Origin: Mastigias papua | Taxonomy: Eukaryota; Cnidaria; Scyphozoa; Rhizostomeae; Mastigiidae | Length of the DNA stretch: 64,000 bases | Direction of reading: 5' to 3' | Assembly: GCA_964019165.1 (NCBI GenBank) | Contig: OZ025279.1 | Span: forward strand, 5,932,341-5,996,340 | In this document: positions 5,301 through 59,817 of the stretch, in pieces | Position numbering within the stretch: the first letter of the stretch is position 1 | Layout: every line of letters starts with the position of its first letter | The notes under the pieces: generated by a model | Seen by the model: the letters and a program-made list of their open reading frames with translations, nothing else | The model's database searches: none | Told to the model about the DNA's origin: nothing | Program-made: the position numbers and the translations under genes

Positions 5301-5902
5301 TACAAATGATGCAACGGTGATAACAGGAAAATAAACTCACATTTTCAGTGTTCCAAATTCAATGCAACTCGAACTTCACAGTTTTGGTAAATTCATGAAA
5401 AAACCTTGACATTGTCGAAACAATGATGAAACACGGCGCACCATTTCGGATCACATATCTACAAAGATAAGATGTTTGATGCTGCTATTATAAAATTGAA
5501 AGGGCAGAAAAAATTAATGCCTTGAAAGTTTAGCGAAGGAACATTGATTTTTTTGTGTCTTATTCCAACCCTAATATTTTACCAGCATTTTTAATTCAAA
5601 AATTAATATTTGAAAAACGAACGATGTACATCAAAGATATATAATAAGATGGAACATATCTAGTTGCAATTTCCAACATTATCATTTCAACCGTTAAGTC
5701 CTAGTATCAAAGATATGGGCTGTATTTTCTAATGAAATCATATTGTTAAAAAATATTACACCAAAAATATAGCTTCATGTCATATCTTTGTTGAAAGTAA
5801 ACAGAGAAGAAAAATTAGAACAATAACATTCAGCAGAAATATAATCCTTCCTAAAATTATCTTGCATCGTTCTATGTAGTAATAAGATAAACCTGATCAT
5901 AC
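2322..5902. other. Region downstream of located TTC4 exons, no exon identified
   Basis: No convincing exon found. An 11-base C run lies at 2589-2599. Around 2570-2960 the ends read taccgaataaacg and, inverted, tacgaaataatcg, a weak hint of a terminal-inverted-repeat element with pyrimidine-rich (ccaacccc) interior. The terminal TTC4 exon, about 30 codons and beginning by completing an AG-N arginine codon, should be here or further left. Confidence 0.4.
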
Positions 5903-8900
5903 CTTTCTTCACTCAAAACCTCTTTCAATGTCCGCGAAACGGGGACTTCAATGCATGAATTCGAGGCACCATTTTCATAAAAGACCTAGGAGAAAGATCT
6001 TGATTTTGAGATAGTCCTGGCAAGCTAGCTGAACTGTAAATAAATTGCCTCGCATAAGGTAAAAAATTACCATGTTTTCAGCAAACAACAAACCAACTTT
6101 GGTTAAAAAAGCCTGTTTAGGTAAGCGAAAAGTGACTTTGTAGGTGGAGCGGACTGACATAAGCAAAATGCAAAGAATATTCTACTGTACACACAACATC
6201 TAAAACAAAGATTAAGATATACAAAACGATTAGGAAACATCCATGCAGCTGACTATCTGAGGGTTGGATGGTACGCTTGTAAGTGTACACAACTGAAAAG
6301 AAAGGTTCAAGTAGGATATGTATAGGAATGCAATACCGCAATATAAAATATGACAAGCAAAGGCTCAATAGATGCAAATTGCGTTGTATGGCTGTGAGAA
6401 TGAGGGAACAATGAACTGAAAGCGCGAATTAGAAATTGCTTAAGCTTAGCGTATCGTGAATAACTCTTGCGGCATTTCTCACTGAAAATTCCATTCAGAA
6501 TACTAAGACAATGCACGCAATGTCATAGACGAACTACATTTAGGGCCTTCGCATCTTAAAAGTGACACAAATGACCTGATGCATGAAAATTTTCAGGAAG
6601 TGAGGGGACGTAGATAATTCTCAATGGGATAGATCTCACTCTATTCTATCATGTTGCTATTGTACACCTTCACCTTTACGACGAAGCGGACAACTGCTAA
6701 CTCTGGTTTTCAGTGAAGATCCCACAAAGATGCACTAGTGTTAAAGAATTACGTATGGAATGGAAGCTGCAACGTTAATAAGATAATATGGGTGTTACTT
6801 AAAGTAACCTGACTAAGCACCTTGATACTGCAGTGAGAGTGAAAGGCAATTCGCTGCTGTAGGGCTGCGCTTCTAACACCAAAAAACAGCTAATGACTTT
6901 GACAATAGAACCAAATGTCATAGCTTCCTAATGCAATTGTCTACAATACTGAACTTTCGATTTGCTTATACGAACGCCTCCTCCATGACTCAGAATTATG
7001 AATGGTGAAAGATATTGTAAATTCTTACTACTGCGGAAAAGGCATGATCTCAATATAGCTTTAGGTGAATACGGAATTGCAAAAAGGCTAAGTTGCTTCA
7101 AAACCAATCATGTAAAACTGAGTAATTCAATCATTCTCTCACTAATTTATTTGGTCTTTCGTGCACTTAATCAATAATCGTTAATTTATGTCTAGTCAAC
7201 TAATTTAATTACAAATTAAATTTTCATTCTCTCATTAAATCACTAAATTGTTCGTTCAAGTATTCCAAATTGATAACTTTAACACCAAAAATTCTGATTC
7301 GATCTAACTCGGGAATTCATTCAATCCTAATTCAATTGTTCTCAGAGCAACATCAATGCCTATTGCTGAAATAGTTACTATACTATTGGCTGCTATATGC
7401 GCCCGTGCGTTCGCGCGTGCGTGGGTGGGTGGGTACTTGTGTGGGTATGTATGTGTGTTGAAGAATTTACCGTATTATCCTATTTTGTTGATTGATCATA
7501 GAAATGTTCATTGTCTGTTGGATGTAGAAGGGATACAACGTTATGTGAACAACGCGTGCTTCCCTGGTTGAACGCTATTATTTGCTAACTATTTTTTCGA
7601 AGAAGTTCATTCATTTCTACTTCCTACTAGCTAACTTATGCAGCAAGAATCTGCAATTTTACGCCAATCAACTTACAAAAATATTCCTTCTGAATACATT
7701 GGGAAAAGATAGACAAAAACTGTAAAAGGCAATGCACGCAAGACCCAAAATTATGAGGCGCACTTACACAGATATATTGTAGAATTCTTTACAAAGGCCT
7801 CTCCACGCAATTTTTAAATAGCAAAGGCTCTATATTACACAAAATATTACCCTAAGATTATTTTTGCTGTAATGCTTCCCAATGTCCCATTCAGGAAGAT
7901 TATTTGAATCAAACATGACCTCCAGGTGATCAATAAATCTAAAAAGAAATCATAAGTCCATTCAACAAAATACACCGTCTTATAGTACATAACTTTAACA
8001 GAATATTGCATTGATCCTATGTGATTCCAAAAGAATTGAACAGCCATAGCAGCAAGATCAGTGAATACTACGTACTGAAGCAAGTAAATATACAAGTTTC
8101 TTGCAACACATCACAAATATTATGGCTCCATGCTCACAAAAGATAAAAAGTAATCATAGGACCTGACGTCAGCTGACGTTAGGAGATATTACACTATGAT
8201 CATCAATCACTTGCATTAATAACAAAGGCATCAGCAGCTCAACTCAAGACTCTCCCTGATCTTAAAGTTGGGGACTGACTGAGATTTTAATCAAAATTAT
8301 GTCAAGAGTTACATTTGCTACTAAGTCATATACCAACCTGTTGCTTTCACAATAATCTTCTATAAAATCTGACTGGCTGTACTCAGGATACAGAAAATAA
8401 ACAGGCCAATGCAGCAAATTTTCATCATCCAAGTATATTTTATCTTCTTGAGGTTGATTCATTGACTGCGATTTTAGTTTTTCCAGAATTGCCTCGTTAG
8501 ATGGGCCGCCTTCAACTTTGATGCCACGTTCCTGTTGCAGACAGCAATACACAGATAGAATGTCAAACAATACGAAATAAGACAACAAGCAAAAGCTGGA
8601 TGTAGCTTTTTATTATAACCAAGAGTACACATTTCGCATTAGATAAATCAGGTTGGCTCTTTGAAGGTACTTTCTTTCTCTATACCTTTAGCACCTTTCG
8701 AATACCGAACTTCACTAGGATCCCTCATTTATCAATTTTAGTTTTACCATACTCTATATTATGTCTCGGCTAGTTCAAAACTCAAATATATTGACACTTT
8801 ACTGATGTTCCAAATTTGAAAGAGACTTAGCCAGTATTCTTATTGACTGCTCCAATGATGGTACCATTAAGAAGGTGTCCAAATCCCTTCTCGTAATATC

Positions 8901-11900
8901 ACCCATAATAAAGTTAGATCACATACGATCCTGTAGTTGAGATTGCCTTTTAGAGAGGGTATGTATCATGGGCCGTTTGGCATAGTGAGGCAGGGTTGTC
9001 AGTTTCCTTCCTCGTCGCCTGTATCTTACTAGTATAGTCACCAGGTACCCATCTGATGTTGAGTGGGCAGTGAACGAGCACTCAAACTTGACTATATTCC
9101 GAAGCGAGTTTCGAACCATCGATCTTCCGCAGCACATTAACGCTCTAACCAGTCAGTACTTCACACATATATCAAATAATTGAAAAAGCTCACCCCATAT
9201 TACTGTAAGTCCTCCAATAAGCCAATTGGGGGCATATTTTATTTCTTATGCTTTTTGGGTGGGGCATACTCAAAGGGCGGCTTTGTCAAGGGAGGGGGTA
9301 ATTCAACCTAAATTCGACTGGATATTTGCGACTCATGGCATTCTGCGTACAAATAACACAGATAAAGGACCTCCTTTCAATAGTGCAGAACTGGCAGACT
9401 TCATAAAGCCGAGACCGAGAGGGGGACCTGCAGACTGGGCAACTCAGTTCCTCTTTACACCAGGCTTGCGCCCTGGAGAAGCTATTCCTGCTATGTCTTG
9501 ATGTAGAAAAAACACGAGGAATGACTGTCATCGGTTATAAGCTACAGCTCGATTGGCATAGAGTGAGGAACCAGGGGCCATTCCTGATGGTGGGAGATGT
9601 TAGTTGACTTCAATGGATCGTCCCCGCCTGCCTTATGATGAATAGCCCTCAGCAACTGTCCCACCTTTGGCCACCTGCCAAACTGGATTCATAGAGCTCA
9701 GAGATAATCTGACAAATGGCCAATATTCACTATGCCAAAGAATAGAACAATAAAATCCAATAAGCGATCATTCCTTTTTGGGTGCTGGAATGTTCGCAGA
9801 ATGCTGAATGGAATTACTAATGATCTGAAAAGTATCTCAGATGCCCATAAAACAGCTTTTCTCAACCAAGAACTACCCACACTCAACAGCGACATTGCAG
9901 CATTGCAGGAAACAAGACTGGCTGATTCTGGAAACTTGAGAGAGTCCCAGTACACTTTCTTCTGGAAGGGCAAAAAGGATGACAAAGCTGATGAGCATGG
10001 TGTCAGTTCTGCTGTGAAGAACTTACTGGACAAAACTAAACTTGGCTGCTCATTTACCACACGTCTAATGTCCAAGAAACTAAACAAATCTGATGAACCA
10101 ACTCATCTCCTTTGTGTGCATGCAACGACAATCAGTAATCCTTGCGTGAAGACGACCTCCATAATCAATTAGAGTCCCTTATCACAGACTTTCCATATCA
10201 GAACAGCCCATACTTCTTGGGGACTTTAATGTCTGTGGAAGAAATGATCATGATGCCTGGCCAAATTATCTTGGATATTCTAGCATAGAAAAATGTAACG
10301 ACAATGGACAGAGACCATTGCAGCCCTGCACTTACCACGACCTGTGCATCACAAACGCTTTTCTCGACATAAAACCACATCAGAGAATGTCCTGGAGGTA
10401 CCCTTGTTCAAAACATCTGTACCAGCTTGACCTAGGTTTTACACGCTGCCCATTCCTGCAAAACTACAACACCACTCGTATCTATCACAATGCAGATTGT
10501 GACACAGGCCACTAGTGGTGTATGCAGCCAAGTAAATATCTACCCACCAAAAAAATATACTGAACTAGACAACCTGGCAAACCAAGAGCGGAAACCAGCA
10601 AGACCAGGCATCCAGATCACATCAAAGCCTTTGAAACAATCTTCAATTCTACATTCTAGTACGGTACAGACAACTCATCAGCTGATCAGTGGGCTACATT
10701 GAAAGACACTACTCATTCTGCTGCAATCTCCTCCTGTGGGAGAAAGAAGATTGGAGAAGGAAATGACTGGCACACTGAGTACGCTGACACACTTGATCCT
10801 CTGATTAAGGCAGAACGTTCAGCACTACAAGCCTACAAGATAATCCAACTCAATCGACTCTTGAAAAGCTATGAACTGAAAGAATCAAAGTCACTAGTAA
10901 CAAGTCAAAGCAGTTTGATTGATGGGTAGAGCACTATATTGAAGTGTACTCCACAGCACATATGATTAGCCAAACTGCTCTAGGCACCATCAAATGCCTA
11001 CCCATGATGCCAGAGCTAGATGATCCTCCCACTCTAGAAGAATTAGAGAAAGCGATAGACAGACTCCAGTCAGGAAAAGCAGCAGGAAAAGACTCGAATC
11101 AAGCAGTTGTGATCAAATCTAGCAAATCAAGTTTATTGCATCATCAGTTATAGATTGCTTCTTCAATGCTGTGATGAAGATACCGTTCCTCGAGATACGA
11201 GAGATACAAACATTGTGGCATCATATAAGAATAAGGGGGGCTGCAACAATTGCAACAACTAACGTGTTATTCCTCTCCTAAGTACTACAGGGAAGTTGTT
11301 TGCCCACATTGTCTTGAAGAGACTGAAACTCCTTGCTGAAAGAGCATATCCTGAGTCACAATGTGGTTTTCGATCAAACAAATCTACCATAGACAAGATC
11401 TTTTTTCTCTACACCAATTACTAGAAAAGTGCAGAGAACAGCATAGGTGGTTTTCATAGATTTGACCAAGGTGTTTGACTTGGCTAGCAGGGATGGGACT
11501 CTTCAAGGTGTTGCCTCTAATCCGATGTCCTTCAGAGTTTCAAAGAATAGTGAGGTCATTCCACGATGGCATGATGCCCGCCGTGCAGTTTGATGGTGGC
11601 ATATCTGCAGAGTTTGGTATGAAGAGTGGAATTAAACATGGCTGTGTTCTGTCCCCAACACTCTTTGGCATTTTTTTGCATTACTCCTCTAACATGCATT
11701 CAAGAACTCGTTCACCTTCACATAAGATCAGAAGAACGTCTCTTTAATATCTCCAGATTATGCTGCAAGACCAAGAAGAGTGTAGTCCTTATTTGCAACT
11801 TACTGAATGCTGACGATGCAGCCATTGCTTCCCCACACACAAGAAGGGCTTCAAAGCCTGATGGATAGATTCTCTGATGCCTGTGATATCTTCAGTCTTA

Positions 11901-13216
11901 CCATCAGCCAGGAAAAGACTACAGCAAAGGGACAAGGTGCACAATGGTCATCAGAAATCAAACTTCAAGGCAAAAGTCTGGAAGTTGCCATCAATTCCAA
12001 AACCTGAGATCTACCACCACTGATAACCTCTCACTTGATACATACATCAGTAAACGTATTGGTAAGGCCTCAACTACTCTAGGCAAGCTCACAAATAAAG
12101 TATGGGAGAACAAACTTCTCACCATACCAACCAAGATTAATGTGTATTAGGTCTGTGTCCTCCCCAGCTTGATGTATGGGAGTGAGTCCATGGACCACAT
12201 GCTCTGCACAAGAACAAAGAGACTGAACTCCTTCCACGTGTGCTGTCTGCAACATATTCTGTGAATTACCAGGCAAGACCGTGCCACAAACAAAACAGTT
12301 CTTTTAACAGCAGGTATCCCAACCTTGTTACACTGCTGTGCCAGCACTGCTTCAGGTGGCTTGGTTACACTTACAGAATGGATGACAGCCAGATACTCAA
12401 AGATCTCCTATATGGAGAATTGGCCATTGGTAAATAAAACATAGGCCACCCACACTTGTGCTTTAAAGACATCTTCAAACGTGACATGACGGCATGTAAC
12501 ACTGATCCTAACACGTGGGGAGCCAAGGCAGCTGGCAGAACTGCATAGAAGAGGGTGAACAGAATATCAGGGCCCTGAATGATGAAGAGAAAGAAAAAAT
12601 AGGAAAGACAATAAGCAAAATGACCATTCAATAAGCTATGATGCATCGGTTTTGACATGCGAAGCCTGCAACAGAATATGAAGATCCAGGATTGTTCCCT
12701 ACAGCCACTCTATACGATGTTCTAATAGACTGAATGATGCCAAGGAGATCCTTAGGAAAAAGCAACTATAGCATCAGCAAAATCAAATTTTAGTCACATT
12801 TAGAATGGGCAACAACGAAAAGCAACAAAACTACTTGGTGTGATCTTTGACCACCATCTGTTATGGAAAGAGCATGTAATCATGGCAGCGTCATCCTGCT
12901 TTGGAGTTCTCTCTGTACTGAAAAATTCAAGAATGTTACGTCGCGCTGTGAAAAATGGATTATCTCGATTCTGTATACCGACCACTGTCATTAAAACTAC
13001 AAACATGCTTACACACAGTTGAGAATGCAACCTCGAGTTTTGTTTTAAGCTGTTACGCAAAAGAGAAGGACATTGCATCACTAGGGTGGCTGCCTACTAC
13101 AGAAAACGAGATTGGCATCTTTCACAGTCAGGATTTAAATATACAACAGATAAAAGGAAACCATATTACATATAGATCATCATATTATTCTTCATCAGTA
13201 TCAAAATTATCACCTT

Positions 13217-13275
<59 letters not shown>

Positions 13276-14724
13276 ATAGCATTGAAAGAAAATCGTAGAC
13301 GTATGAGATCAGCTTCCGCATCGAAAATTGCAAAATCAATGAACTCAAAAACTTTGAAGAACAATGCAGCTGAGGCTTTCAACTAGCTTCAAAGTGGTAT
13401 ACAAAGTGCCAAGACTAATGCCGAGTGTTCATCAAAGACATGTTTCTTTACTGAAGCAAACAAGAGTCTATCATGCTGAACTTCAAAAGTAAATGACATA
13501 CTCATATTTTTAACTAATTCCTTCTATTATCCGTTTAAATCGTAAAGATGCAATTAGTTTGTCACGACATCTGAAAAGAAGCCAGAGAGCCTAGTAGGGT
13601 CAACATATAAAAGGAATAAAAATAAATTATCACATACACAACAAATTATACACCACTACCTTAACAAGACTCTTCCTAGCATTTTCAATTATTGATAAAT
13701 GTTGCAATATAGGCCACTGTATACTTACAACAATTGCATCAGTTAATTCCATTTCTTTCTGAAGGATTTTCTTCTTTTCTATAATTCTTTTCCTTTTATC
13801 TCTTTCTTCTACTTTCTGCATAAAGAACAATACACACATACAAGTATACCCATCTATAAGTACATACTATAAGTACATTGCCTTGCTCTGCTGTGTTTGA
13901 TACCCGGCAATATGGTCCTTGGACTACAGTGACTGGACTATAAGAATTGCTACCATCATTTGCTCAAATAGAAAATTTTCCAGCAAAATCCACTACAACT
14001 AGTAATGAAAGGAGAAAAAGATATTTCTCTGCGTTTCAACAAAATAATTCCTGAAATGACTCTAACTTTCATACACAACACTGGTCAGTTTGATTCTCAT
14101 GTTTGAGGAACACGTTGATGTTGTAACCAGCAAGTCTTTATTGTATCAAACCTAAGTTTGAGATTTGATAACAATATATTTCTTTGTGAAATTTTAACCC
14201 AGTGCAATGTATCATAGTATATAAGAACCTCGCATTCCTGAACTTAGTTTGTTTGAACTTCGTTTATCAGACTGCCTAAATCAGGCAAAATTTTATCAAT
14301 TTAAAACCAACATCGGTCCTTAGATCCTTAAAGACCCTTAGCCAAAATTGCTCCATCTGGCTATGACTTTTGAAATGTATCATTGCACAATGTTTCTTTT
14401 TTCAAGACCAATCGCTTTTTCAGAGGAAAATCATTCTCCGTGATTTGAATAGTTTGTTTATCCGAATAGCTGGCTGTAAATTTAAGTAAAACGCGTTTGC
14501 ATGGATGAGGGATGATACACTATAAAAAGTGAAAGAATACAAATCAAACTAATCTGAACTAAGAAAGGTTATAGGTATGCAGAATATGTAAAACTTTTAT
14601 GCACAGGCACAAAAACACAAATACGCACACACACGCGCGCACGGACGCGCGCACACAAATACACACACAAATGCACACACAAACGGACACACACACACGG
14701 ACACACAAACGGACACACACAAAC

Positions 14725-14817
<93 letters not shown>

Positions 14818-16734
14818 AAATACACAACACAGACACACACACACAAATAAATACACAACACAGACACACTCACAGAGGTAATATGCGCCGAAGCATGATT
14901 TAATATGCAGGACAGCTAACTGAAGAGATAAGTCTGCTGGCTGCTTCAGTCGTAACAAAGTTCAATTGACTCAATAACCCTATTAGACAACAAATGTTCA
15001 GTATATTCCCAAGAAAGGCTAACTGATTGACAGCAATACAAGTAAAATATTAATCATTTCATATATGCAAAATTTAATCTCTGAAGACGGGACTTTCCAC
15101 ATAATCCTGGAGATTTGTCTAGGAACTTAGTAGAAGAAACTAGCATCCCACGTCCGGCAAAAAAAGATGATCTACCAATGACTTTTATCATTTAATAGAA
15201 AACATCAGTAATGTCAGGCGTTGTCGAGTATGGTCCCACGTCGTTCTTATTCAATTACATGTGAAAGAAACTTCAATCTAATAGAGAATTCACCGATAAT
15301 ATACCCAAAGAACCACGTTCCCCAGTGAACTGAATTTATTTAACCATCATCTAAATTTCAGCTTGTCTTATCATTTAATGGCAAATTCGCAATTGCCAAC
15401 GAATTGGAGCACAATATTGATGTAAAATTTGCTCATTTTGTAAATAGAAAATTCAGAAAAGTTGAGATTCCATTATGCAGGTTAAAGTACTAGAGTAAAC
15501 TCAGTAATTCTATAAAGTAGTGCGGACTGACACAAAAGTCGCTGCAAAAACTCTTACTAAGTAATATGAAGGAATATAACAGTAAATCAAAGACAAGAGG
15601 AAACGCCGAAATGAATGTATACAAATATACCAACCTTTTTACTGAGTGACTGCTTGCGAATAAAAATCAGATTCTTGTTCTTTGGATCAATGTATCATCA
15701 TTAAGGATTCCGTCTCGTACAATTATGAACATGAGTCCTTTCAAATCGGAATATGATTTACATTCATAAATGCCACTTTTGAAATAAAATATATTATAAA
15801 TACTCATCGTTACTTCTACTGTTTTTGATTTACATTAATGATCTTCCATTTTCTCTTCAAAACAGCCAAGTCACAATGTGTGCTGACGATACCACATCAT
15901 ATTCTTCCAAAAACATCGTTGATCTCAGTGAAAACCTTAATAGGGACTTGAACAATCTGAAGCAATGGCTTCATGGAAATACGTTATCTCTAAATTTGAT
16001 TAAGACTAAAGAAATGGTGGTAGTTTCTCTACCAAAACTTAAGAAGATCTCTGACAAAAAGGTACAGCCCCTTACTTTTGTCATTGATGACTCACAAATT
16101 GCGGTTGTTGAAAAAGCCAAATATTTGGCAGATCAACTTGATCAGCATCTTGTTTGGGAAGAGCAAGTTAGATTTGTGTGTGGTAAAATATCTCGTACTT
16201 TAGTGTTTTTAAAGTATGCTAAGAAACTGCTACCGCTAGAAACTCTTAGCCATATCTATAGAGGTATCGCTGAGCCACATTTCCGTTACTGTAGCTCAGC
16301 ATAGAGGAGCTGTGGGGAATCCAGGCTGCTTACACTGCAGAAGCTAGAAAGTCGTGCTGCAAGAATAGTGACAAACAGTAGCTATGATGCACCTGCTAAT
16401 GCCATACTTCAAAAACTTAACTGGCCAACTATCGCCGAAAATATTAAACAAGAGACAGCGACCATGCTCTACAAATCTTTAAATGGTCTCGTAGCGACGT
16501 ATCTCTCAAAACATTTTGTAAGAAATTCTTCTCGAGCCACTCTCTATTTAAGAAACTCTGGCATGGGGAGAAATCATTTCCATATTGTGGTGCTCATCTC
16601 TGGACTAGTCTGGAATCCGAGGTTAAACAAGCACCCACTGTACTTGCATTTAAACATCGATTTTGATATTTCCTTGTTCCATGTTATTTTTCTGCTATTT
16701 CAGCTTTGTAACTAGGGTATTTACTTTACTTATA

Positions 16735-16776
<42 letters not shown>

Positions 16777-19700
16777 ATTTTAAATTGTAAAGTTCTTGCC
16801 AAGGCCCCTGAAAAGCAGCATTAGCTGATGGGGTTACCGTGCATAAAGAATATAAAGATGAAATGAATGAAATGAAATTCTGTTAAAAGATATAGCCACT
16901 ACAAACACACTGAAAATAAGTAATGAACAACTGCACTTGACGGTAACCTGATGCGTGCAACAAGGCGTTTTCGAGGTTTCAAAGATTGCAATATCAAAGT
17001 AGAGGCAAAAAAGTCCAATGCAAAATGCAAATACGTTGATATAAAGATGTCGACAAGCTGTAGTAAGAAGTCTGAACAGTTTTAGGGCCTTTATCAGAGT
17101 CAAAGAGCACAAGCAAACTTGACTGTCAATAGAACAACTCATGCAGAACAATTACATCTCCAGTTAAAGAATCAAGCATAGAGCAAAGTATAAAGTCAGT
17201 CAGTAAACCAATGACCCCACCGTCGTAATGGAAAGAATTTTATATTTTGAAAGCTATTCTAAAAGCTGAAAGGATATTTGAAGGCCTTCGTCACACCAGT
17301 GAGTACACTCATCGTAACGTTGCATTTCTAAGCAGCACATTGCGGCTAAATGAAAGAAGTTCAAAATGCAAGTAAACTTGATTCAGATATCTCCTATGCT
17401 AAACAACGCTGAAATCCCTGTTGCATAACGTATTGAATACCGATACCTAACAGAATACCTAGAAGCCCATCGAAGAGATTGATGTAACGAATAAACAATT
17501 CTACAATACAGGGACTATATTTCACTTCATTACAGCTGAAAGCATGAAACACAAGTAGGATTTTCCGTGTCTGTATAGCACAAAAATCTTGTATCGCACA
17601 TCACTCCATCTCTACTAACTGTCTAATTCACCAAAAAGATTGCTTGTTGAATAACTAGCTTAATAGACAATTAGCTGAAACTTAGAGCGTCAAATACCAA
17701 TAGGGTAATATATATGACAGGGCTAACAATCCCAAAATTCTTCCCTATTTTCATAACTCATACTGCTAAAATCATACCTCTTTGTATTGCTTTCATGTGT
17801 TTTGAATTGATTTTCAATGCATCTGATGCATCCCTTAAAGAGCTTCTATAATTGTCTGCAAGAATAAGTAGTGTTTCAATTAACTGGCCACCAGATCATT
17901 TTAAAAGCCAGCATAAAGCGGGATACTCATTTTTTAAGAACTATAGATAAACAGCCATACTTGACTGAGGCAATGTTTATAATTCAGCGTAGTTTATGTT
18001 CTAACAGTCCACTCTTGACTTAGTATATACCAGATATCAGCCATAGCAGAAAGATGGATGTATATACATATTCATATATACATATACATACAAATATTTG
18101 GGTAGTGGGGCAGGGGCAATCTCTGTCAATAGGAGTGTTAAGACGACTACTTCCCTCCACTAATCTACGGGAGGCTTTTGGGAAAGGTCGCGCACCCACT
18201 CAGCCCCCGATCAGGGTAACGTGAAGTCGCGACAAGCAAGCGATGGATGAAGTGTGAAAGCAGCTGGAGGAGCTCCAGAACTGGTCTTGCACTTCCACGA
18301 GACAGACAGATGATATTGATTTACGTACAATGGCCGGGGCACCTGTCCAATAAGGAAACTGCTCCTGTAGAAAGCAACGGCAAACTACTATAAGTATTTC
18401 TTGCCAACAAAACTCAAACATGACTACAAACAGCTCAAAGAAAGATCTGGGACTCAACACTGGGACCCCCAAGCAGGCTGAGTCCCTTATTAGAATTGGG
18501 GAAGAGCCTAATGCCGGTGGAAAATCACCCATGATGGGTGTTTCACACTAGCTGATGACAGCAAAACGCCTGACTGTACAGAGATCAGAAAGAACCGGAA
18601 CAGATGGCTAAAGAAGAAACAAAAACTCGGAACAAGGAACATCAGGAGCATGGCAGCTGGTAAACTGAACACTAAATGAAAGCAAATAATGATGACATCT
18701 TAGGAGTTGCTGAACATCGCTGGGCAGGGAGTGGCCATTTCATAACAAGTTGCGGTGGGCAATTTATATACTCAGGTAGAGAGATAGCAGGCCAAAGTGG
18801 AGTTGGTGTACTTTTTCAAAGGCAATAGTGAAAAGCCATATAGGATACAAGCCAGTGAATGATAGAATCATCACCATCAGATTACTAGGAGAGATGGAAA
18901 ACATCACACTCATACAAGTATATGCTCCAACAACAGCATCAAGAGAAGAAGAATTAAAAGAATTTTATGATGCATTGCAAAAAGAGATAGACAAGAAGGA
19001 ATATCAAGACATCCTGGTCATCTCAGGGGATCTCAGTGCCAAAGTAGCATCAGAAAAATACACTGAAGAAGATGGAATAGTTGGAAATTCAGGGCTGGGA
19101 CAGAGAAATGAAAGCGGAATCAGACCTGTTGACTTTGCAATTTCAAATTACCTAGCAAACAAAAACATCATGGTTGAGAAACACCCAAGAAGGCTGTATA
19201 CCTGGGCATCACCAGATGGAGTAACGAAGAACCAAACTGAATATTTAATGATTGAAAAGAGATAAGCCTCTACTTTACAAGATGTCACTACCAAACCTAG
19301 TGCGGACTGCGACACGGACCATGAACTTCTTGTTGTAACATTAAAAGTGAAACTGAAATGTGAGAAAATAAACACAAGGCCAGTCCACTATGACGTTCAG
19401 GAGTTGGATGAAAAATTCAACATTGAAGAAAGAAATCGTTTCACGGTATTGCTCAGGAATATTGAGGAAAAAGAACCAGATGAGATTGCAAATGAAACAA
19501 AAACCATCTATTTGAAAACAGCACAAAAACACTCAAGAAAGAGGCTATTCAAAAAACAACCCAGGTTGATGGAAGGAATCCTACAAAAGGTAAAAAAAGG
19601 AAAGAAGCAAAGAGAACATCTGGAGCCCACATTAGTGACTATAAGGCAATAGCAAACGAGGTGAAACAGATGTATTGAAAGGATAAGAGAAAATATCTGA

Positions 19701-22700
19701 TTGGAAAGTGCCAAAAACTCGAAGAATTTATGAAAAAAGACGAAAGCAGAGAGATGTCAACCGCGACTAAGTGTTATAAAGGATGAGAATTGAAAGGTCT
19801 TGACAGAGGCTGGAAAAATAGTAGACCGATGGAAAAGATATAGTGAAGGAATGTTCACAAGTAACATATTAACAACTGAAGTTCAAAAAGTGAGGACCGA
19901 AGACACAGAGCAAAAGGAAGATCCATGTCCACAACCTTTGAAATCAGAAGTTGAATGGGGGTATCAAATCATAACTACTGCATGCGACAGAATTCAGGCA
20001 AAAGTGATAAAATCAAGTAGAAAGAAGCAATAGAAGTGTATCACAAGTTGTGCACAAAGATATGGCAAAAGGGACAATGGCCTACCGACTGGAAAAGAGC
20101 AATCTTTATAGCACAACCAGAGAAAGGAAATTTACAACAATGCTCTAATTACAGAACAATATCATTGATCAGCCATGAAAGCAAAATATTGCTAAAAGTC
20201 ATCATGAAAAGAATAGAAAGCAAAATTGAGGAAGAAATGATTAATAAATAGGTAGGTTGTAGAAAGAACAGACGGACACGAAACTACATCTTTAACTTAC
20301 ACATGTTAGTCCAGAAATATCGTGAAGTGAACACCAGCCTCCTTTCAGCTTTATCGATTACTCTAAGACAGGGGTGGGCAAACTTCTGAGTGCAAGGGCC
20401 ACATTCACAAACTCTAAGTCTTTCTAGGGCCGCATAGTACGTTGCTAAATATTTCTCAAGACACAGAGCGGTGTATAAGCAGCTATTGAAGTAATATTAA
20501 GTAATATTAAATAGTGGAAACTTGACCTGAAACACATACCTTTGGAAAACGAAGTCACGTAGTGACTAACTGTTATGAAGAACAATGAGAATGTCATAAA
20601 TGAACAGGACAATGTCATAAACGAAGTTATTTTTGCTTCCTAACAGTTTTTGGCGGACTGCAAGAAAGCATTTGGCGGGCCGCAGGCGGCCCGTGGGCCG
20701 TAGTTTGCCCATCTCTGCTCTAAGGCTTTTGATTGTGTAAATCATGAAGGACTGTGGAGTACTCTAAAGGAAATGCACTTTGATCCTGAAATTACATTGT
20801 TAGGTCGCTCTGCGAAGGACAACAATCTGCCAGTTGGAATATAAAACAATAGAATAATTTCCAATCACAAAAGGTGTGAGGTAGGGATTCATACTGTCCC
20901 CTTATCTCTACAGTATTTACACGGTGGGAATTATGAGAGAAGTGGAACATGGCCACAGCAATGAGGAATATGATGAACCTGCATTGCAAAGATTGCCCAT
21001 AAGAGATTTAAGATGTGCGGATGATACTGCACTACTAGCCACAACCCCAAGAGGGCTTGAAACTCTTATACAGTCAGTTAAATATCGTAGTCCTGGGCCC
21101 CGGGGTAGTCAGTCGTTTGCTCCCTCGGGTATTTTTCTAGTAGTATTGTAGTGTGTAATTTTGCCAGTATTGTAAATCTGTATGGTAACTTTTATGGATA
21201 TATAAAAAAAATATAATAGTGTCACTATGATATTTTTTTTATATAAGTGAGCAAAAAGGTTTGCACCAGAATATACAGACCTTCTAGACTATACACTATA
21301 CTACAATTCTACTCATTCTGTAGATTCTATTGATTGCAATTTTTCATACTTTGCTTTAAGCTAACTTCCTTCACCTTTCCATTGTGTCCTCAAGTAGCCT
21401 GTATGCTAAAGACTTTTAACACATTACAGGCCTTGCCTGGAAAGGCACTCAATCAAGCACTAGCACCCATACCATGCTTAAAATTAAGCATAAAGTGTGA
21501 TATGTCAAGCACTCAAATTCTTGAAGTTGAAGGAAAGCATTCATAGAATGGGTGCAAAACAGAGTACCTAAATTGTTTGAGAAGCATGTATATTAGAGCA
21601 ACTATGTTTTGCTCAGGGCAAGGCCCGATATGAATAAAGATTTTGATTGACTTGATTGATTGACTGAATGATTATTAAAATGCAATGAGTAATTGAAAAT
21701 AAATATGCATTGGCAAATTATCAAATAGTTAACCCTAACAAACTACTTATTTAAAGAACATGATGGAACAACAAGTAAACATGAAAGGGCTATCAATATT
21801 GTTCCTGGTCCCATTTATTCACTTGGTTTATACAGCAAATGACATCTTTTCAGTACAGTGTCTCAAGACAAAATATTCATTATGATAATGGAAACAATAT
21901 TAACTCACTTAAGTAATAGTTTGCCACAGCTCTGTTGGTAAATAAGATGACCCTGAGGTCAGCATCTTCAAACTTTTGTCTTAGCCCTTCTGAGTAAGCT
22001 GAAATAGCCTTATCATACTTCTTCAGCTTGAATTGATGATTTCCATCCTCTTTATGGGCCATAGCACATTCTGTTCAAAAAAGAAAGATATTGTGAAACA
22101 AAACAACTTTTCATTAAAATTACTATAACTTTAGCAAACTCTACCACTGCCACCACTGCCACCACTGCCACCACTGCCGCCACTGCCGCCACTGCTGCCA
22201 CTGCTGCCACTGCTGCCACTGCTGCCACTGCTGCCACTGCTGCCACTGCTGATGCTACTCTGTGTGTGTGGTGTGTTGTGTTGTGTTGTGTTGTGTTGTG
22301 TTGTGTTGTGTTGTGTGGTGTGGTGTGGTGTGGTGTGGTGCATGTTCTGTTTGTCCATTTGTGTACCCTTAAGTGTGGTGTGTCTGTGTATACTTGATTG
22401 ATTACAGACATGCATATATCATATATGGCATATGACATTGCCTTATGCTCAATTGTCTCATCTCAAAGTCCCAATCAATCTATCAATACAAAAATAGTGC
22501 CAAACCTCCTTAGAATATGCAAATAGTGCAACCTTGTCTTAAAAACTTCAAGCATCAGTTGCTAAGGGATGGAGTTTAAACATGGCCATAGTATATAATG
22601 AGTATATTATCTATTGTAAATATAAAACTATAGATGATAAGAATTAAGGTGCAAAAGCTATAACAAAGTGTACAAAAGGCAATCACATGTGAACAGGGGA

Positions 22701-25700
22701 GAAAATTTACTGAAGACAATGTGGCCAGATCTAGCATACTAATGTGCTCTTTAAAATATTTCTGACAAAAACTTTTCATGTATCTTTTGTCATAATGTGA
22801 AAATCTAGCATAATTCTGATAAAATTGTAATATTATTGTACAAAATTAATTGTTTCAGTACAAGAGCATTCTTCTATTAATGGTAGCATGCAAATGCTTG
22901 ACACCTAAATGTGCGCCCATTATTTTTTGAATGAGTTGCAACTCTATCAGACAGCAAGGCACTTTATGATTTACAGCTATTATGAATCAGCAAGAGCCAT
23001 GAAGAACATAGCAAGCCAAGACATATTATACCAAAGTGTAGATTGTCCTAATAAACTTCCTAAAATACTATCATGAGTGACACAGCAAAGACAAATGGGT
23101 ACAAATCTACATCATTGTTACTGTATGAGCTCTCTCTTTTTATATCACATTAGACAATTAATTGGCTATTTTATTGTTAACTGTTCATGTCCAGCTATGA
23201 TTTTCAAGTGCATCATTCATCAAACATATTGTTGTTGCCTATACTGGACATATAAAAGCCACTTTTCAAAGGTATTGACTTTGATTTTACATTTATCATA
23301 GTTTTGTTAATTATGGCATAACTTTATGACAGCTTTGGCATAAGTAATGAAAGGCACTGAAAGTGATCTGGCCATAAGTAGTGCTAACATGTAAAAATAC
23401 AGGTAGCAACACTCAAATACTCAACCTGCCAATAAAGCAAGCCTACAAAAATCAACAACTACCAATAACTTTCAGCTAAAATAATTTCTTTTTCTTTTCA
23501 AATTATATATCTAGTATCTTAAGTGCTACAAATCAATAGCAGTATTTACCATATTTTGCCATGCATAAGACACACCTTTTTTTAAATATTATTGGCTTCA
23601 TTTGAGGATGCATCTTATGAATGGTAACACTGACAGCCTCATCAGTTCCTTTTGAAGGCAAAGTGCTTTTTATAGACAAAATAGTATGGCACTAATTGGG
23701 GTACCAATTATTTCAATTCTTAGTCATTGCAAATGTAACAATCAAATGGACAAACACAGAAGACCACCAAGCCACAAGCAACATATCAGTATATACTTTC
23801 AGAAATCAGTTGCATACATTGAGCAGGAAAATCATTTTGCCACAGGTGTCACTTGTGTGGAAATATCTATCATGTGGCATACTGTTTCCAAAACACCTTC
23901 ATTATTCATTACCCTGCTATGGTGATATCATACGCATCCTATTCTGCTGGTATTCCACTCAAATTTGTAGACTAGGCTTTGGTGCATGGAAATCAAAAAG
24001 CCAGCAGAAAATGCTGAGTTAATGAACCAAACATTCAAAGGTGATTAAAGGCAAAGGATAACTAGCCCTGAGTCAAGTGTGTTAATTGTGGAATGCCCTT
24101 TGGTAATATACATGCTTTACAAGGACAGAGAAAAGGGGGTGTCTCTTATATATGGTAAGGCATGGTTTTCTCAGAATTCAAACATTGAAATAAGGGTGCA
24201 TCTTATACAAGAATGCACCATTTACATGGCAAAATATAGTAGGCTATTCAGTTTACTACCTCTTGGATCTGACTCTTCATATTTCAGTGCCTGCAATGCT
24301 GAAAGTGCTGGTGAGGCATCAATCTCTTCCTGTGTTGGTGGCCTATCCAGAAATGCTGGAATCTTTGTGATTTCCTGATAAATAAAAGCAATGTAACTAA
24401 AATCAAAGAGCTATGAAGAGAACTAAGGCGAACCATAGAGCTAACTGATGGCTTTTTGCTAATGATAGATTAAACAATCATCTTTGATACAAATATCTAA
24501 AGAATTCTTAAAATTCAGTGCCTCTTCTCTGTAATCTGCCAGCTTCATACATGTCACTCAATCTAACTGAAAGACTTCAAATCAAATTTTCATCAACCTA
24601 AGGGCTCAGTCAAAAAAGGCATAACTGATAGGAATATGCACAACTTTCTAAACAAATTGTCATGAAATACTTATGGGTGTGGCCTGTCAGATAACATAGT
24701 TCTAAAATACTAAGAAAATTATGTGTTACTGCTATATAGTCAACTATTCTGTAAGACAGACACCTTGTTACGATAAACAGCAGATACTACTTTTTGTAAA
24801 ATGCACAAAACACTTTACAGAATCGGACACTATAAAATTAATGTATGATGTAAAACAGTGATTTGAAGATAAATTTATGAAACAGGATTGCAAAAACTAG
24901 TTGTAAATTTAATGTCCCAATTTATATTGGTGGTTCTTTTCATTTTCAAGACTTGCTCTCAGTTGACAGTGAACTAGTCACACATAGAACATGCAAAGAA
25001 ATTTGTGCCAGCAGTGGCAGCAATGATGATGATCCAGAAAAACATGAAAAGACACTTGAGTTCCAACAATCCATGTTGCTATTCTAATGACAGATGATTT
25101 GAAGCAATCTGCACAGAATAATCTGAAAGATGAGGTGCTTATCATATCTTTGAATTTAGTCTGCAGATTACTTAAAGAAAAAAGAATCCAGCACATCAAG
25201 CAGAAAGACATTAAAGGCTACTATTTAGTGCAATTTCTTTATAATAAACACTCTACTTGTGAGTAGCAACTTCTTTATTGAAATGATCACAATGTTCTGT
25301 TTATTTGAGCTCCTCTGCACTCAAAAAGGGCAATTTTCTATCAAATGGACACCTCATCAAAGTGGACACTTCTTCAAAGTCCCGAGGGTGTCCACTTTCG
25401 AGAGAGTTAGCTGTATTTTGATTTCTGAGTTGGGGTGGCAACATATGGCACACATTACATATAAGGCCCTGACAAATATAGTCCATAAAAAATGGAACCA
25501 TTTATACTATTTTTTATATTTTCTGTCTTTCATAATGAATTATTTGTGAATGTCATGACATTTACACATTGTGAGGTGAAAAGTCCTACTCCTCAATAAA
25601 ATTCATTCAGTTCAAATTCTCAAACCATCCCTGCTCCTCTATGTGTGGAGGGTTACATGGCCCACAATACATATATATTTGTAATAATGTTAAGATAAAT

Positions 25701-26754
25701 TTGAAACTTTGCAGAAATAGTATATGGTCAAGTTTGCATGGGATGAATTTCACAGCCACATAGCTATGTGAGCCATATATGTAAGGAAATGTTGCCACCA
25801 TAAATTCTATTTCTTGATCTTTGGGGTACCAAAGGCAAAGGCATTGCATTGTAAAGGAAGCTTGTGCTGCATAGCAATTGCATGTTATTGCTTTTTCAAT
25901 TAATTTGTTCATTTGAAATAGTTTACAACCAGCTTATTCCATACATCATGTTAAAGCAGGAGAATAGAAGCTAACATATTTGTCTCCTGGCTGCAGAGTT
26001 TGGCAAGGGTACACTCAAGATGTTTGTTCACAAATGATGCTGCACACCCTGAAATGGGCATGGCAAGATTTTAAAAGACGTGGCAAGGTGTGACTTTAGA
26101 GCTTAATTTGAATTCATAGCACAATTGTTCAAGCTATCATAAAGATAGTACTGAAGCATTTGTTTCACGATCTTATTTCTAAACGTAAAATACGAAAAAT
26201 AGCCAGACTTGTTTTACTATGCAAGCTAAGAAGTCAAATGCACACATACAGTGCACACTTGCCACCGAGTACACATTTGCAGACCTGCCATTTTGCTCGT
26301 ACAAACCGGAGATCTCGTAGAAAAAGCCTATACTCCGGAAATGCTTCATGCAAATGTAAGCCAAGGGCAAGGGGGTTTTCGAGTTTCCACGAGCCAATCT
26401 GGAACCGAGGGGGGTCACGCTTCAGATATGTGTCAGAAATCCTGAGTTTGTTGTGCGCCGGCTTATTTCAATAAGAAAGTATAAGTTATGTTTGGAATTA
26501 AGAGCGTAAAGAGTATACTGGCGTAAATTGTCTAAACATTTGGCGCAGATCTGTGGCGGAGCGTAGGTCGACGAGGAACAAGACTTAGACCAAGGATCTA
26601 AAACAATTTGACTACTTACTTCTTCCAAATTCTCTGCAGTTAAAACATCATTGTACTTGAAATCTGCATTCCTTTCAAATACGTCTTTCAAGTGTTCATC
26701 AAATTCCTCTTTTAACCGGTCAACAAGCTTGCTGCTATTTTTTTCTTCCACCAT
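5903..26754 (-). CDS. TTC4: TTC4, TPR co-chaperone of Hsp90/Hsp70 (terminal exon not found)
   Basis: Exons in gene order: 26620-26754, 24260-24374, 21909-22070, 17778-17855, 17278-17345, 15635-15691, 13729-13815, 8338-8531, 7851-7938, 5903-5985. Phases agree at every junction, giving 355 codons against 387 in human TTC4. The N-terminus carries KIPAFLDRPP. The TPR region follows: EDGNHQFKLKKYDKAISAY, TNRAVANYYLNNYRSSLRDA, CCLEMQRYDECTHWCDEGLQ. Next come a charged helix (EERDKRKRIIEKKK), the hallmark block LHWPVYFLYPEYSQSDFI, FIDHLEVMFD, and RTLKEVLSEER from the C-terminal domain. TTC4 and yeast Cns1 are cytosolic adaptors that bind Hsp90/Hsp70 tails through TPRs. The 15692-17277 intron looks U12-type. 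The start is the ATG at 26754, 90 bp from the MMACHC ATG. Confidence 0.93.
5986..7850 (-). other. TTC4 intron, no internal feature recognised
   Basis: Long intron between the FIDHLEVMFD exon and the RTLKEVLSEER exon. It includes a short GTGCGTGGGTGGGTGGG-like purine-rich stretch near 7402-7450. Nothing else supported. Confidence 0.5.
8940..9165 (-). mobile_element. tRNA-derived SINE, copy 2
   Basis: Read on the minus strand this has an A-box-like GACTGGTTAGAGCG near 9143-9157 and a B-box-like GATGGTTCGAAACTC near 9105-9120. The conserved body follows: an ATGGGTACCTGGTGAC block near 9040-9056, then aggaaactgacaaccctgcctcac. The same order and body occur at 27243-27500 and, partly, at 60383-60480. 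It lies in the TTC4 intron in the same orientation as the gene. Confidence 0.75.
9226..12720 (+). mobile_element. Near-full-length non-LTR retrotransposon, frameshifted (LINE-B)
   Basis: A decayed LINE antisense to TTC4. The APE endonuclease starts near 9732 (FGCWNVRRMLN) with ALQETRLADSGNLRES and FFWKGKKDDKADEHGV. RT blocks follow in order: LEELEKAIDRLQSGKAAGKD (11027-11090), ESQCGFRSNKSTID (11351-11393), motif A FIDLTK near 11455, GIKHGCVLSPTLFGIF near 11629-11676, motif C NADDAA near 11805. Then come DNLSLDTYISKRIGKA, WLGYTYRMDD and a C-terminal Cys-rich piece (CEACN then SRIVPYSH) near 12656-12711. These belong to active non-LTR elements, but several frameshifts and stops make this copy dead. 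The upstream part, 9226-9730, is probably its 5' UTR; I see no gene there. Confidence 0.85.
12790..13140 (+). mobile_element. LINE fragment, RT C-terminus (LINE-C)
   Basis: Frames give KLLGVIFDHHLLWKEHV near 12827-12878, then LKLQTCLHTVENATSSFVLS, AKEKDIASLGWLP near 13059-13098. This is the post-palm block of a non-LTR RT, in a different frame on each side of about 12955. It is a short dead fragment on the plus strand, antisense to TTC4. A CAT repeat follows directly. Confidence 0.65.
13219..13275 (+). repeat. (CAT)19 microsatellite
   Basis: 57 bp of uninterrupted CAT units. It gives a spurious polyhistidine on the plus strand and polyaspartate on the minus strand. Confidence 0.98.
14598..14872 (+). 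repeat. (AC)n microsatellite with variant flanks
   Basis: The pure AC run spans about 14727-14815. Flanks on both sides are variant units with GGACAC and AAATAC interruptions. It lies in a TTC4 intron. Confidence 0.97.
15798..16875 (+). mobile_element. LINE 3' part inside the U12 intron (LINE-D)
   Basis: The open frame at 15825-16304 begins in RT palm with INDLPFSLQNSQVTMCADD (motif C as ADD), then LNRDLNNLKQWLHGNTLSLN. The 16320-16715 part has LESRAARIVTNSSYDAP and ETATMLYKSLNGL. One stop at 16302 separates the two. The 3' UTR ends in GATGAAATGAATGAAATGAAAT near 16855-16877, a short repeated tail typical of CR1/L2-like elements, with a TA run at 16738-16774 inside. It is 5'-truncated and on the plus strand, antisense to TTC4. 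Confidence 0.8.
17040..17112 (-). repeat. Possible degraded retroelement end with hammerhead-like core
   Basis: The minus strand reads CTCTGATAAAGGCCC followed by AAAACTGTTCAGAC. This resembles a CTGATGA...GAAAC hammerhead arrangement with changes in both core boxes. Weak alone; listed because clearer examples occur at 55470-56113. Confidence 0.25.
18090..21090 (+). mobile_element. Non-LTR retrotransposon, RTE/BovB-like, interrupted (LINE-E)
   Basis: A near-complete but dead LINE antisense to TTC4. The 5' region is about 18090-18600. The endonuclease part has TLIQVYAPTTASREEELKE (18907-18963), GDLSAKVASEKY, LGQRNESGIRPVDF and RLYTWASPDGVTKNQTEY near 19192-19242; the TWxSPDG...NQ block is like that of RTE/BovB elements. 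RT: DWKRAIFIAQPEKGN, CSNYRTISLISHESK near 20140-20180. Motif A is split by a hAT insertion at 20369-20717. Then FILSPYLY near 20888 and CADDTALLATTP near 21015-21046. Stops and frameshifts throughout. Confidence 0.83.
20369..20717. mobile_element. Non-autonomous hAT element with 8-bp target duplication
   Basis: The left end CAGGGGTGGGCAAACT and the right end AGTTTGCCCATCTCTG are inverted repeats. Flanking octamers are CTCTAAGA (20361-20368) and CTCTAAGG (20718-20725), one mismatch. The 8-bp duplication and CAGGGGTGGGC end fit hAT (Charlie-like) transposons. It is 349 bp with no transposase. The interior near the right end is GGGCCGC-rich as in many hAT MITEs. Confidence 0.88.
21199..21245. 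repeat. AT-rich perfect-type hairpin (23-bp arms)
   Basis: Arms 21199-21221 and 21223-21245 pair with one mismatch around a single central base; the core is ATAGTG-T-CACTAT flanked by A8/T8 runs. It lies just past the end of LINE-E. It could be the centre of a short palindromic element. Confidence 0.7.
21560..21660 (+). repeat. Probable retroelement 3' tail, (TTGA)n-like
   Basis: The sequence gggcaaggcccgatatgaat is followed by aaagattttgattgacttgattgattgactgaatg, a short-repeat tail like those ending LINE/SINE copies. The body of the element was not recognised. Confidence 0.4.
22138..22345. repeat. Two adjacent tandem arrays: CTGCCA-type and TTGTG-type
   Basis: Positions 22138-22250 are repeats of (CCACTG / CTGCCA) and 22258-22345 are TTGTG/TGGTG pentamers. 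They give a spurious Ser-Gly or Ala-Val peptide on the minus strand. They start 67 bp upstream (gene sense) of the acceptor of the TTC4 TPR exon 21909-22070. Confidence 0.92.
23549..24239. mobile_element. Terminal-inverted-repeat element in TTC4 intron, TA target site
   Basis: The left end CCATATTTTGCCATG and the inverted right end CTATATTTTGCCATG match at 14 of 15 positions. TA flanks both ends (23547-23548 and 24240-24241). Subterminal sequences share gcataagacacacc / tataagatgcaccc. The ends resemble pogo/Tc1-mariner MITEs of the CCGTATTTT...TATAAG type. No transposase was recognised. The right end lies about 20 bp from the 5' splice site of TTC4 exon 2 (24260). Confidence 0.7.
24375..26619 (-). 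other. TTC4 intron 1, mostly unrecognised
   Basis: At 25310-25430 the sequence, read on the minus strand, gives AGCTAACTCTCTCGAAAGTG then GGACACCCTCGGGAC and repeated tccac blocks. This looks like one end of a cut-and-paste DNA transposon, but I could not find the other end. The GC-richer block 26245-26460 looks repeat-derived. No exon seen. Confidence 0.4.
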
Positions 26755-26844
26755 CTTTCACGTGCAGCTATTGCTCGCTCCTCCGTATCTTCCACTGCTA
26801 TAAATCTAAAACGATACCATCATTCAAACGAGGCTGAGAACACG
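26755..26844. promoter_or_regulatory. Shared TTC4/MMACHC bidirectional promoter interval
   Basis: Only 90 bp separate the two divergent start codons. It contains an E-box CACGTG at 26759-26764 and TATAAAT at 26799-26805, 40 bp before the MMACHC ATG. Transcription starts must lie in this gap or overlap the opposing 5' exons, so the two genes very probably share promoter elements. The individual motifs may be chance. Confidence 0.65.
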
Positions 26845-28247
26845 ATGGAAGGTGAAAGCAAAGAACTCGACGCTACCCAACTCGAGAGTATTTTAACAAG
26901 ATTTAACAAGCTGACGGACAGAATTGGTCTTGAAACTCACCCCTTCAAGGTGAGACGTTATTTGATTTGTTTCCGAGCTAGTATTTTTATCTATATTATC
27001 TCCAGACAAGTTGATACTACATAAGATTTTTGTTTTTGATGGGGATGTGTCACTTCGCTCCATGAGATACAATGGGAATATGGCAGCTGCATGCACAAAA
27101 TTGTTGTTTTTAAGGTTCACCCGCATATGGAGAAATATGTGTGGACACTCATTGCAACTGTGTAAGGTTTAGTCCCTGTCCTTTTCCTCAAAGTGATAAA
27201 AGTGTCCTTTTTGGAGACTTTTGACGATATTTATACAGTACTGGGTGAATGGCCAAGTGGTTAGAGCGCTTGACTGCTGTGGGAAACATCAATGGTTCGA
27301 GCCGAACCCTCGGATCAAAGTTGGAATGCTCGCTCACTGTCCACCCAGCAGTAAATGGGTACCTGGTGGTAACACTAGGGAAGCTAAAGGTGGCGAGGAA
27401 AGGAACTGGCCACCCTACCTCACTGTGCCATGAATGGGACCACCAGATGGGGACTATTGCATATTTGTTAAGCTTTCATTATATATTGTTTGTGTTTCAC
27501 TACTTCAGTATTTCTGAGAACATGGATTAATTTCAGTTTTAATTCTGATCTCTTTTGTTTGCCCATTTTTAAGCCTTGCACTCATCTTCAATCCATCAGG
27601 TTGGCTGGTACAATGATGCAGTGAAGTCAAGTTTCACTTTACCATGGAATGCAGATACACTTGCCTTTGTGATTTTGAGCATTCCAGAAATGTTTGAGAA
27701 GTGTCTCATTCCATTCATCAAAGATGATTCTTATGATTGTTCCAGTAGGCAAGATCCACTTGACCAGTGCATGAAAGAAGTTTTTCAAACTTTGAAAAGA
27801 GAGTTTAGTGAATTTAAAGTTGAAGGTATTCATGATTATGAGGTGCATCCAAATAGAAGGCCCAAGATTCTTATGCAGACAGCTGGTCATGTGTCTGGTG
27901 CAGCATACTATTATAGGCAAGAACATTTGAAAACCACTGATGTTGACAGAAAATTATATGGAGTATCCATTCACCCCAAATATGGGGGATGGTTTGGATT
28001 CAGAGGTATTTTGATCTTTGAGAATGCCCTGTGCCCTGGTTTGAAGTGGAAAGAGCCAGCAGATGTTTTAGTCACAGAGGAATTAATAACTGAAGTTCTG
28101 AAACGGTTTAATCATGATTGGAAAGACTGTAGTTATAGAGATATCATTAAAACTGAAGCCAGATATTCTGATAAGCAAAAGCTGTATTTCCAAACACCCC
28201 CTGCAGAAAGAAGAGAACTAATTTTGAATCTTATTAAATCAGTTTGA
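26845..28247 (+). CDS. MMACHC: MMACHC, cobalamin-processing (CblC) protein
   Basis: Two exons, 26845-26949 and 27600-28247, joined in phase 0, encode 250 residues. MMACHC binds intracellular cobalamin, removes the upper ligand (decyanation, or glutathione-dependent dealkylation) and passes it to the methylmalonyl-CoA mutase and methionine synthase routes. Exon 1 ends GLETHPFK and exon 2 begins VGWYNDAV, matching human GFEVYPFQVAWYN. Conserved blocks: DYEVHPNRRPKILMQTAGHV near residues 115-134, GAAYYY, the HPKYGGWF region, and a final YFQTPPAERREL block. The human protein is 282 residues; this one ends soon after the TPPAERR block and lacks the Pro/Ser-rich tail. The splice sites are AAG|GTGAGA and CATCAG|GTT. 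The intron carries a SINE. Confidence 0.95.
27243..27500 (+). mobile_element. tRNA-derived SINE, copy 1, in MMACHC intron
   Basis: The head has A-box TGGCCAAGTGGTTAGAGCG (27249-27267) and B-box GGTTCGAGCC (27294-27303). The body contains ccacccagcag then taaatgggtacctggtggta (27350-27369), and aggaaaggaactggccaccc. The head is tRNA-like but does not read as a functional tRNA. Related to copies at 8940-9165 and 60383-60480. Confidence 0.8.

Positions 28248-43806: not shown

Positions 43807-52233
<8,427 letters not shown>

Positions 52234-52686: not shown

Positions 52687-59817
<7,131 letters not shown>

Follow-up and report, generated by a model that had tools for sequence, protein, structure and literature searches.

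Intron 5 of the TTC4 gene is very probably a minor-class (U12-type) intron with AT-AC ends. The gene is read from the minus strand of the window (G000:C17:5932341-5996340), by which we mean the whole 64-kb stretch of DNA analysed, part of a genome of 346.8 Mb in 172 contigs (Table 1). The class was assigned because this is the only reading found that keeps TTC4 colinear and also carries both U12 motifs. Splicing at CAA^ATT and dependence on U12 are predictions from the sequence. In the proposed pathway, the U11/U12 di-snRNP would recognise ATATCCTTT and TCCTTAAT together and U6atac would then take the place of U11 at the 5' splice site. Branching would occur at an A of TTAA, and CAA would be joined to ATT to give ...GLQ^IDP.... 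An intron like this is of the ordinary kind for animals. The more interesting question concerns a changed U6atac in the same genome.

Table 1. Positions of the TTC4 intron 5 features in the window and of the U6atac genes elsewhere in the genome.
Feature	Position	Strand	Description
TTC4 coding part	5359..26754	-	11 exons, 389 codons with stop, single open frame
TTC4 exon 5	17278..17345	-	terminates ...WCDEGLQ; aligned with relatives
TTC4 intron 5, probable U12-type AT-AC	15692..17277	-	1586 nt, phase 0
Intron 5 5' splice site ATATCCTTT	17269..17277	-	9/9 to RTATCCTTT, C at +5
Intron 5 branch element TCCTTAAT	15700..15707	-	9 nt between second A of TTAA and exon
Intron 5 AC acceptor	15692..15693	-	without pyrimidine tract
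TTC4 exon 6	15635..15691	-	opens IDPKNKN; 57 nt
Non-LTR retrotransposon (LINE) fragment, antisense	about 15817..16878	+	about 1.06 kb, inside intron 5
U6atac gene 1	G000:C5:9300233-9300360	+	Rfam
U6atac gene 2	G000:C5:9986451-9986580	+	Rfam

The ends of the intron fit the protein exactly. The donor ATATCCTTT adjoins CAA, the Gln codon of WCDEGLQ, and the first ten bases of the intron are ATATCCTTTC. The 3' end is TCCTTAATGATGATAC (15707..15692, minus), after which exon 6 continues as ATT GAT CCA (IDP). The preliminary description had placed the intron at precisely these coordinates, after the Gln codon and in phase 0. By simple count against U12 consensus letters (taken from excerpts of PMC8199999 and PMC2846911), all nine donor positions match, versus 3-7/9 in the nine other TTC4 introns. 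The branch element, taken as ATCCTTAAT, matches TTCCTTRAY at eight of nine positions (5-7/9 in the other nine introns). It is close to TTCCTTAAC, its last base being T and not C. Pyrimidines make up 9 of the 20 nt before the acceptor, versus 12-15 in the other nine introns.

Some features of the intron count against the U12 reading. The exon begins 9 nt after the second A of TTAA and 10 nt after the first, and the distance from U12 branch to acceptor is given as 10-20 nt with an optimum of 11-13 (excerpt of PMC8199999; the optimum also in an excerpt of PMC3584512). Both this short spacing, on the lower limit of the range or slightly below it, and the final T of the branch element are unfavourable. 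So is phase 0, which minor introns avoid (excerpt of PMC10639083). Because intron 5 and exon 6 both open with AT, one could also place the junction one or two bases along, with TA-CA or AT-AT ends. Among these possibilities, only AT-AC places the donor in the consensus register.

Could the intron be spliced by the major (U2) spliceosome instead, as happens with AT-AC introns of U2 type in sodium-channel genes? Such introns do exist (excerpt of PMC2831892), and the class cannot be read from AT-AC ends alone. However, the known U2-type examples have G at +5 (same excerpt) and intron 5 has C; this class was rejected. The absence of a pyrimidine tract and a U2 donor score of just 2/6 also argue against U2 splicing, which is very improbable here.

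Even less probable is an ordinary GT-AG or GC-AG junction elsewhere, with the AT-AC match a coincidence. The search took donors between exon 5 and +300, together with acceptors between -300 and a point close to where exon 6 ends. Six GT/GC-AG pairs in this range are in frame and stop-free. All six use an acceptor 50 nt into exon 6, and they were rejected because they remove 50 of its 57 nt, a stretch kept in relatives. The earlier claim that no alternative GT-AG solution fits therefore stands within the searched range, where none that is in frame keeps the protein colinear. The frame read on into the intron runs ISFQLLE and then meets a stop, again as had been said. The added remark that there is no GT near was almost right: the next GT downstream is at +57, but exon 5 itself contains GTs, with those at -17 and -19 closest.

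What favours coincidence is that the U12 motifs occur in the window at about the frequency expected by chance. RTATCCTTT, the donor type of ATATCCTTT, is found three times (2.2 expected) and TCCTTRAY followed by YAC four times (3.7 expected), while TCCTTRA is scarcer than expected (10 against 22). Rarity of the signals on their own was therefore rejected as an argument. The part that is not chance is that both motifs lie exactly at the two exon edges demanded by protein colinearity. Of the 12692 AT dinucleotides in the window, 2 are the start of ATATCCTTT, and of the 6949 AC dinucleotides, 4 have the branch motif at the right distance. The joint product for donor and branch at both exon edges is 9e-8 (with the two intron 5 sites themselves included in the counts), which speaks against coincidence. 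As for other occurrences, a second ATATCCTTT at 35713 (+) sits in a neighbouring gene, between its C2 and copine-domain exons, with no exon end seen there, and GTATCCTTT at 1575 is past the end of TTC4.

That TTC4 is here a decayed or duplicated copy in which the junction is irrelevant is barely credible: the many transposon fragments in its introns would fit decay, but the 389-codon frame is intact over 11 exons, GT-AG ends are found at every intron except intron 5 (nine of ten) and the protein is 60% identical to a Rhopilema esculentum TTC4-like protein (P0001) over 98% of its length. The U12-type gene structure predicts a complete product of 388 aa. Pfam finds TPR_1 at residues 87-114 (5.6e-12), TPR_2 at 162-191 and the Wheel domain PF18972 at 269-372 (2.7e-18). 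This is the order of domains (TPR, then Wheel) that characterises TTC4/Cns1 co-chaperones, and the product is colinear with human TTC4. Its best PDB matches are 6hfo, a chain named "Tetratricopeptide repeat protein 4" that we take to be human, and 6hft (Cns1), presumably the yeast chain.

A first protein search with the product returned 15 relatives. P0001 is the nearest named relative, and Rhopilema is a scyphozoan. P0002, a model whose GoldUCD name we take to denote an Aurelia data set, is 59% identical. The closest relative by identity is P0005, a JGI protein of 245 residues (72% over 63% of the product). A protein of the hydrozoan Clytia (P0133) is 44% identical. Judged by these relatives, the animal is probably a medusozoan cnidarian.

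How do relatives behave at the junction? The window protein was aligned with 180 proteins, and 36 rows (window included) were examined there. Most relatives among the rows listed run colinearly through WCDEGLQ^IDP; P0175 and P0179 are poorly aligned at this place. Two others are disturbed. P0003 is identical to the Rhopilema protein as far as the junction and then gains 33 residues precisely at GLQ^ID, an insert whose end does not fit a U12 intron and so counts against the reading. P0004, a eukprot model, is without WCDNGLQ and has NVIFSLFFLNLFY before ADNAEQ. A U12 branch motif placed 10 nt ahead of an AC end is compatible with this peptide, as it is with 101 of 61607 (0.16%) random stop-free 13-codon stretches of the window. 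Perhaps both irregularities are annotation scars left by an AT-AC intron in the relatives. The P0003 insert could equally reflect an intron of another type at the same position. Intron 5 shows why gene prediction breaks here, two relatives' models being disturbed at exactly this junction. These two broken models lend indirect support to the preliminary description's view of the intron as "preserved". P0005 comes from a contig of 1111 nt with no interruption where introns 4-10 would lie, which points to a spliced RNA or a retrocopy. It reads WCDEGLQIDP.

Mammalian TTC4 isoforms have missing blocks with edges matching window introns 2, 3, 4, 6 and 7, and among the gaps listed (deletions of at least 12 residues, insertions of at least 10) none has an edge at GLQ^ID. 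These isoform gaps neither show nor exclude intron 5 in vertebrates. A count of 10 exons in human TTC4 would leave no room for intron 5 if all the other introns are shared. A literature search for TTC4 as a minor-intron gene found no relevant paper (PMC7774950 concerns TTC40), one listed paper on trypanosomes aside.

The genome encodes the RNAs that a U12-type intron would need. In Rfam model searches of the genome, all four minor snRNAs exceed their cut-offs. U12 (101.6 bits) and U11 (102.4 bits, with its AAAAGG end kept) are each found at one locus, as is U4atac (57.3 bits, just above the cut-off of 53). U6atac is found at two loci, both on contig C5 (107.7 and 104.4 bits). In each of these searches, none of 14 control genomes matches. 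A scan of the 64-kb window itself found no Rfam family at gathering score. Together with both defining motifs and the only colinear solution found, these genes support the U12-type reading offered in the preliminary description. The branch element of intron 5 can pair with the genome's own U12 (UCCUUA/UAAGGA, 6 bp, -6.5 kcal/mol). This energy was dropped as class evidence because it does not discriminate intron 5 from intron 3 (-6.2). Another cnidarian, Hydractinia, also has all four minor snRNAs (excerpt of PMC11067881).

A second minor intron comes from PHB2, a gene that hosts an AT-AC intron in both human and fly (excerpt of PMC2831892). The PHB2 gene of this genome (G000:C23, minus) has an intron of 733 nt in which the exon ending ...KAATL is followed by ATATCTTTTT...TTTTCTTAACCGGATCGTAA and then ATTGGACAG. 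It is U12-type, with the donor ATATCTTTT, the branch core TTAAC and AT-AA ends, which are the most frequent among the non-canonical ends known in minor introns (excerpt of PMC10639083). Like intron 5, it combines a U12-type donor with a branch core. It differs from intron 5 in its ends and in a branch 11 nt from the end, rather than 9 nt. Other known U12 host genes count against the U12 reading of intron 5: STX6, LSM12 and NLK have GT-AG at the boundaries examined, which may or may not be the orthologous ones.

AT-AC introns of Trichinella spiralis make a close comparison. The three listed in Table 1 of PMC2846911 (excerpt) have the identical ATATCCTTTC, the TCCTTAA core and a TAC end. In contrast to TCCTTAAT at 9 nt in intron 5, their branch sites are TTCCTTAAC and lie further from the acceptor; intron 5 also differs by its internal LINE fragment. 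U12-type introns are already known from jellyfish (excerpt of PMC8199999), and Acropora corals have a high minor-intron density (excerpt of PMC10639083). To these, intron 5 would add one minor-class host gene in a cnidarian.

Both U6atac genes depart from expectation in the same way. They read UAUGAGCCGAGAG where the Rfam consensus has UAUGAAAGGAGAG, so that AAG is replaced by GCC at model positions 12-14. These positions presumably fall in the part of the RNA that base-pairs to the 5' splice site. Upstream, the flanks of the two genes are unlike but both contain TATAAATGT, located 24 and 31 nt ahead of the gene start, and more distally CCCACAT; we read these as promoter parts. Are there other, unchanged copies? 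GAGAGAAGGTTAGCA with at most one mismatch occurs at 33 places in the genome (five exact; 38 for a backward-pattern control), two of which are the known loci. Among the 31 others, the three exact places and one inexact place checked gave no Rfam match. The RNA looks functional on the evidence of its predicted helix with U4atac, in which 14 contiguous pairs are possible (-25.4) even though both partners differ from consensus there.

This change affects the predicted pairing with the donor. In the register described in the literature, the TTC4 and PHB2 donors pair at 6/6 positions with consensus U6atac. With the U6atac of this genome they pair at 4/6, because of the AAG to GCC change, and +6 and +7 are mismatched. 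Full complementarity of the intron 5 donor to U6atac is thus not found in this fixed register. Such partial pairing counts against the U12 reading of intron 5. Donor and branch site are what define the U12 class (excerpt of PMC3584512), and the mismatch speaks about the snRNA. Both of the U12 introns examined (TTC4 and PHB2) keep ATATCYTTT. A shifted register was considered as well. It gives -8.9 kcal/mol for the TTC4 donor (8/500 shuffles as low), a result not repeated on the PHB2 donor (-5.9, 88/500 as low). The shifted register fits TTC4 and fails PHB2, and it stays unproven.

What might this mean? If both U6atac genes are functional, pairing with the 5' splice site would be only partial here. 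We consider it possible, although rather doubtful, that the minor spliceosome of this animal works with a U6atac that has GCC in place of AAG, the 5' splice site helix then being either four non-contiguous pairs of six or shifted in register further into the intron. If true, U11 recognition and U6atac recognition would be uncoupled in a natural system. Incorvaia and Padgett reportedly found in 1998 that activation requires U6atac to pair with the 5' splice site. A U6atac with an altered pairing triplet, next to introns that have not changed, would offer a natural experiment on how far this pairing is needed. Searches of the literature on cnidarian or Nematostella U6atac, judged mainly from titles, brought up no title on such a change, which may nevertheless be in print.

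The LINE of about 1 kb previously noted inside intron 5 is real. It lengthens the intron and leaves both splice signals untouched. The fragment belongs to a dispersed repeat with 268 first-look candidates in the genome. Forty of these (itself included) were scored, giving 70 match rows, and identity in the remaining long matches is 71-82%. Its RVT_1 match (E 7.3e-5) falls below the Pfam curated cut-off. Two other copies, 87% identical to each other, share nearly the same left edge; this hints at a defined unit length of about 1.1 kb for the reverse transcriptase-bearing repeat in intron 5. By eye from the reading frames, more non-LTR-like endonuclease and reverse transcriptase remains lie in TTC4 introns 7 (9708-12700) and 3 (18780-20300), both on the plus strand.

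The surroundings of TTC4 hold some further features. TTC4 (minus) and MMACHC (plus; PF16690 match, 5.7e-85) stand head to head at 26754-26845. A distance of 90 bp separates the two proposed start codons, an arrangement that suggests a shared two-way promoter. A copine gene with C2 and Copine domain exons lies downstream of MMACHC (31087-39360, +). Long simple repeats appear as open repetitive frames (e.g., HTYIHTYI, IYIYIY) at 54931-55500, 43700-44050 and 56320-56660.
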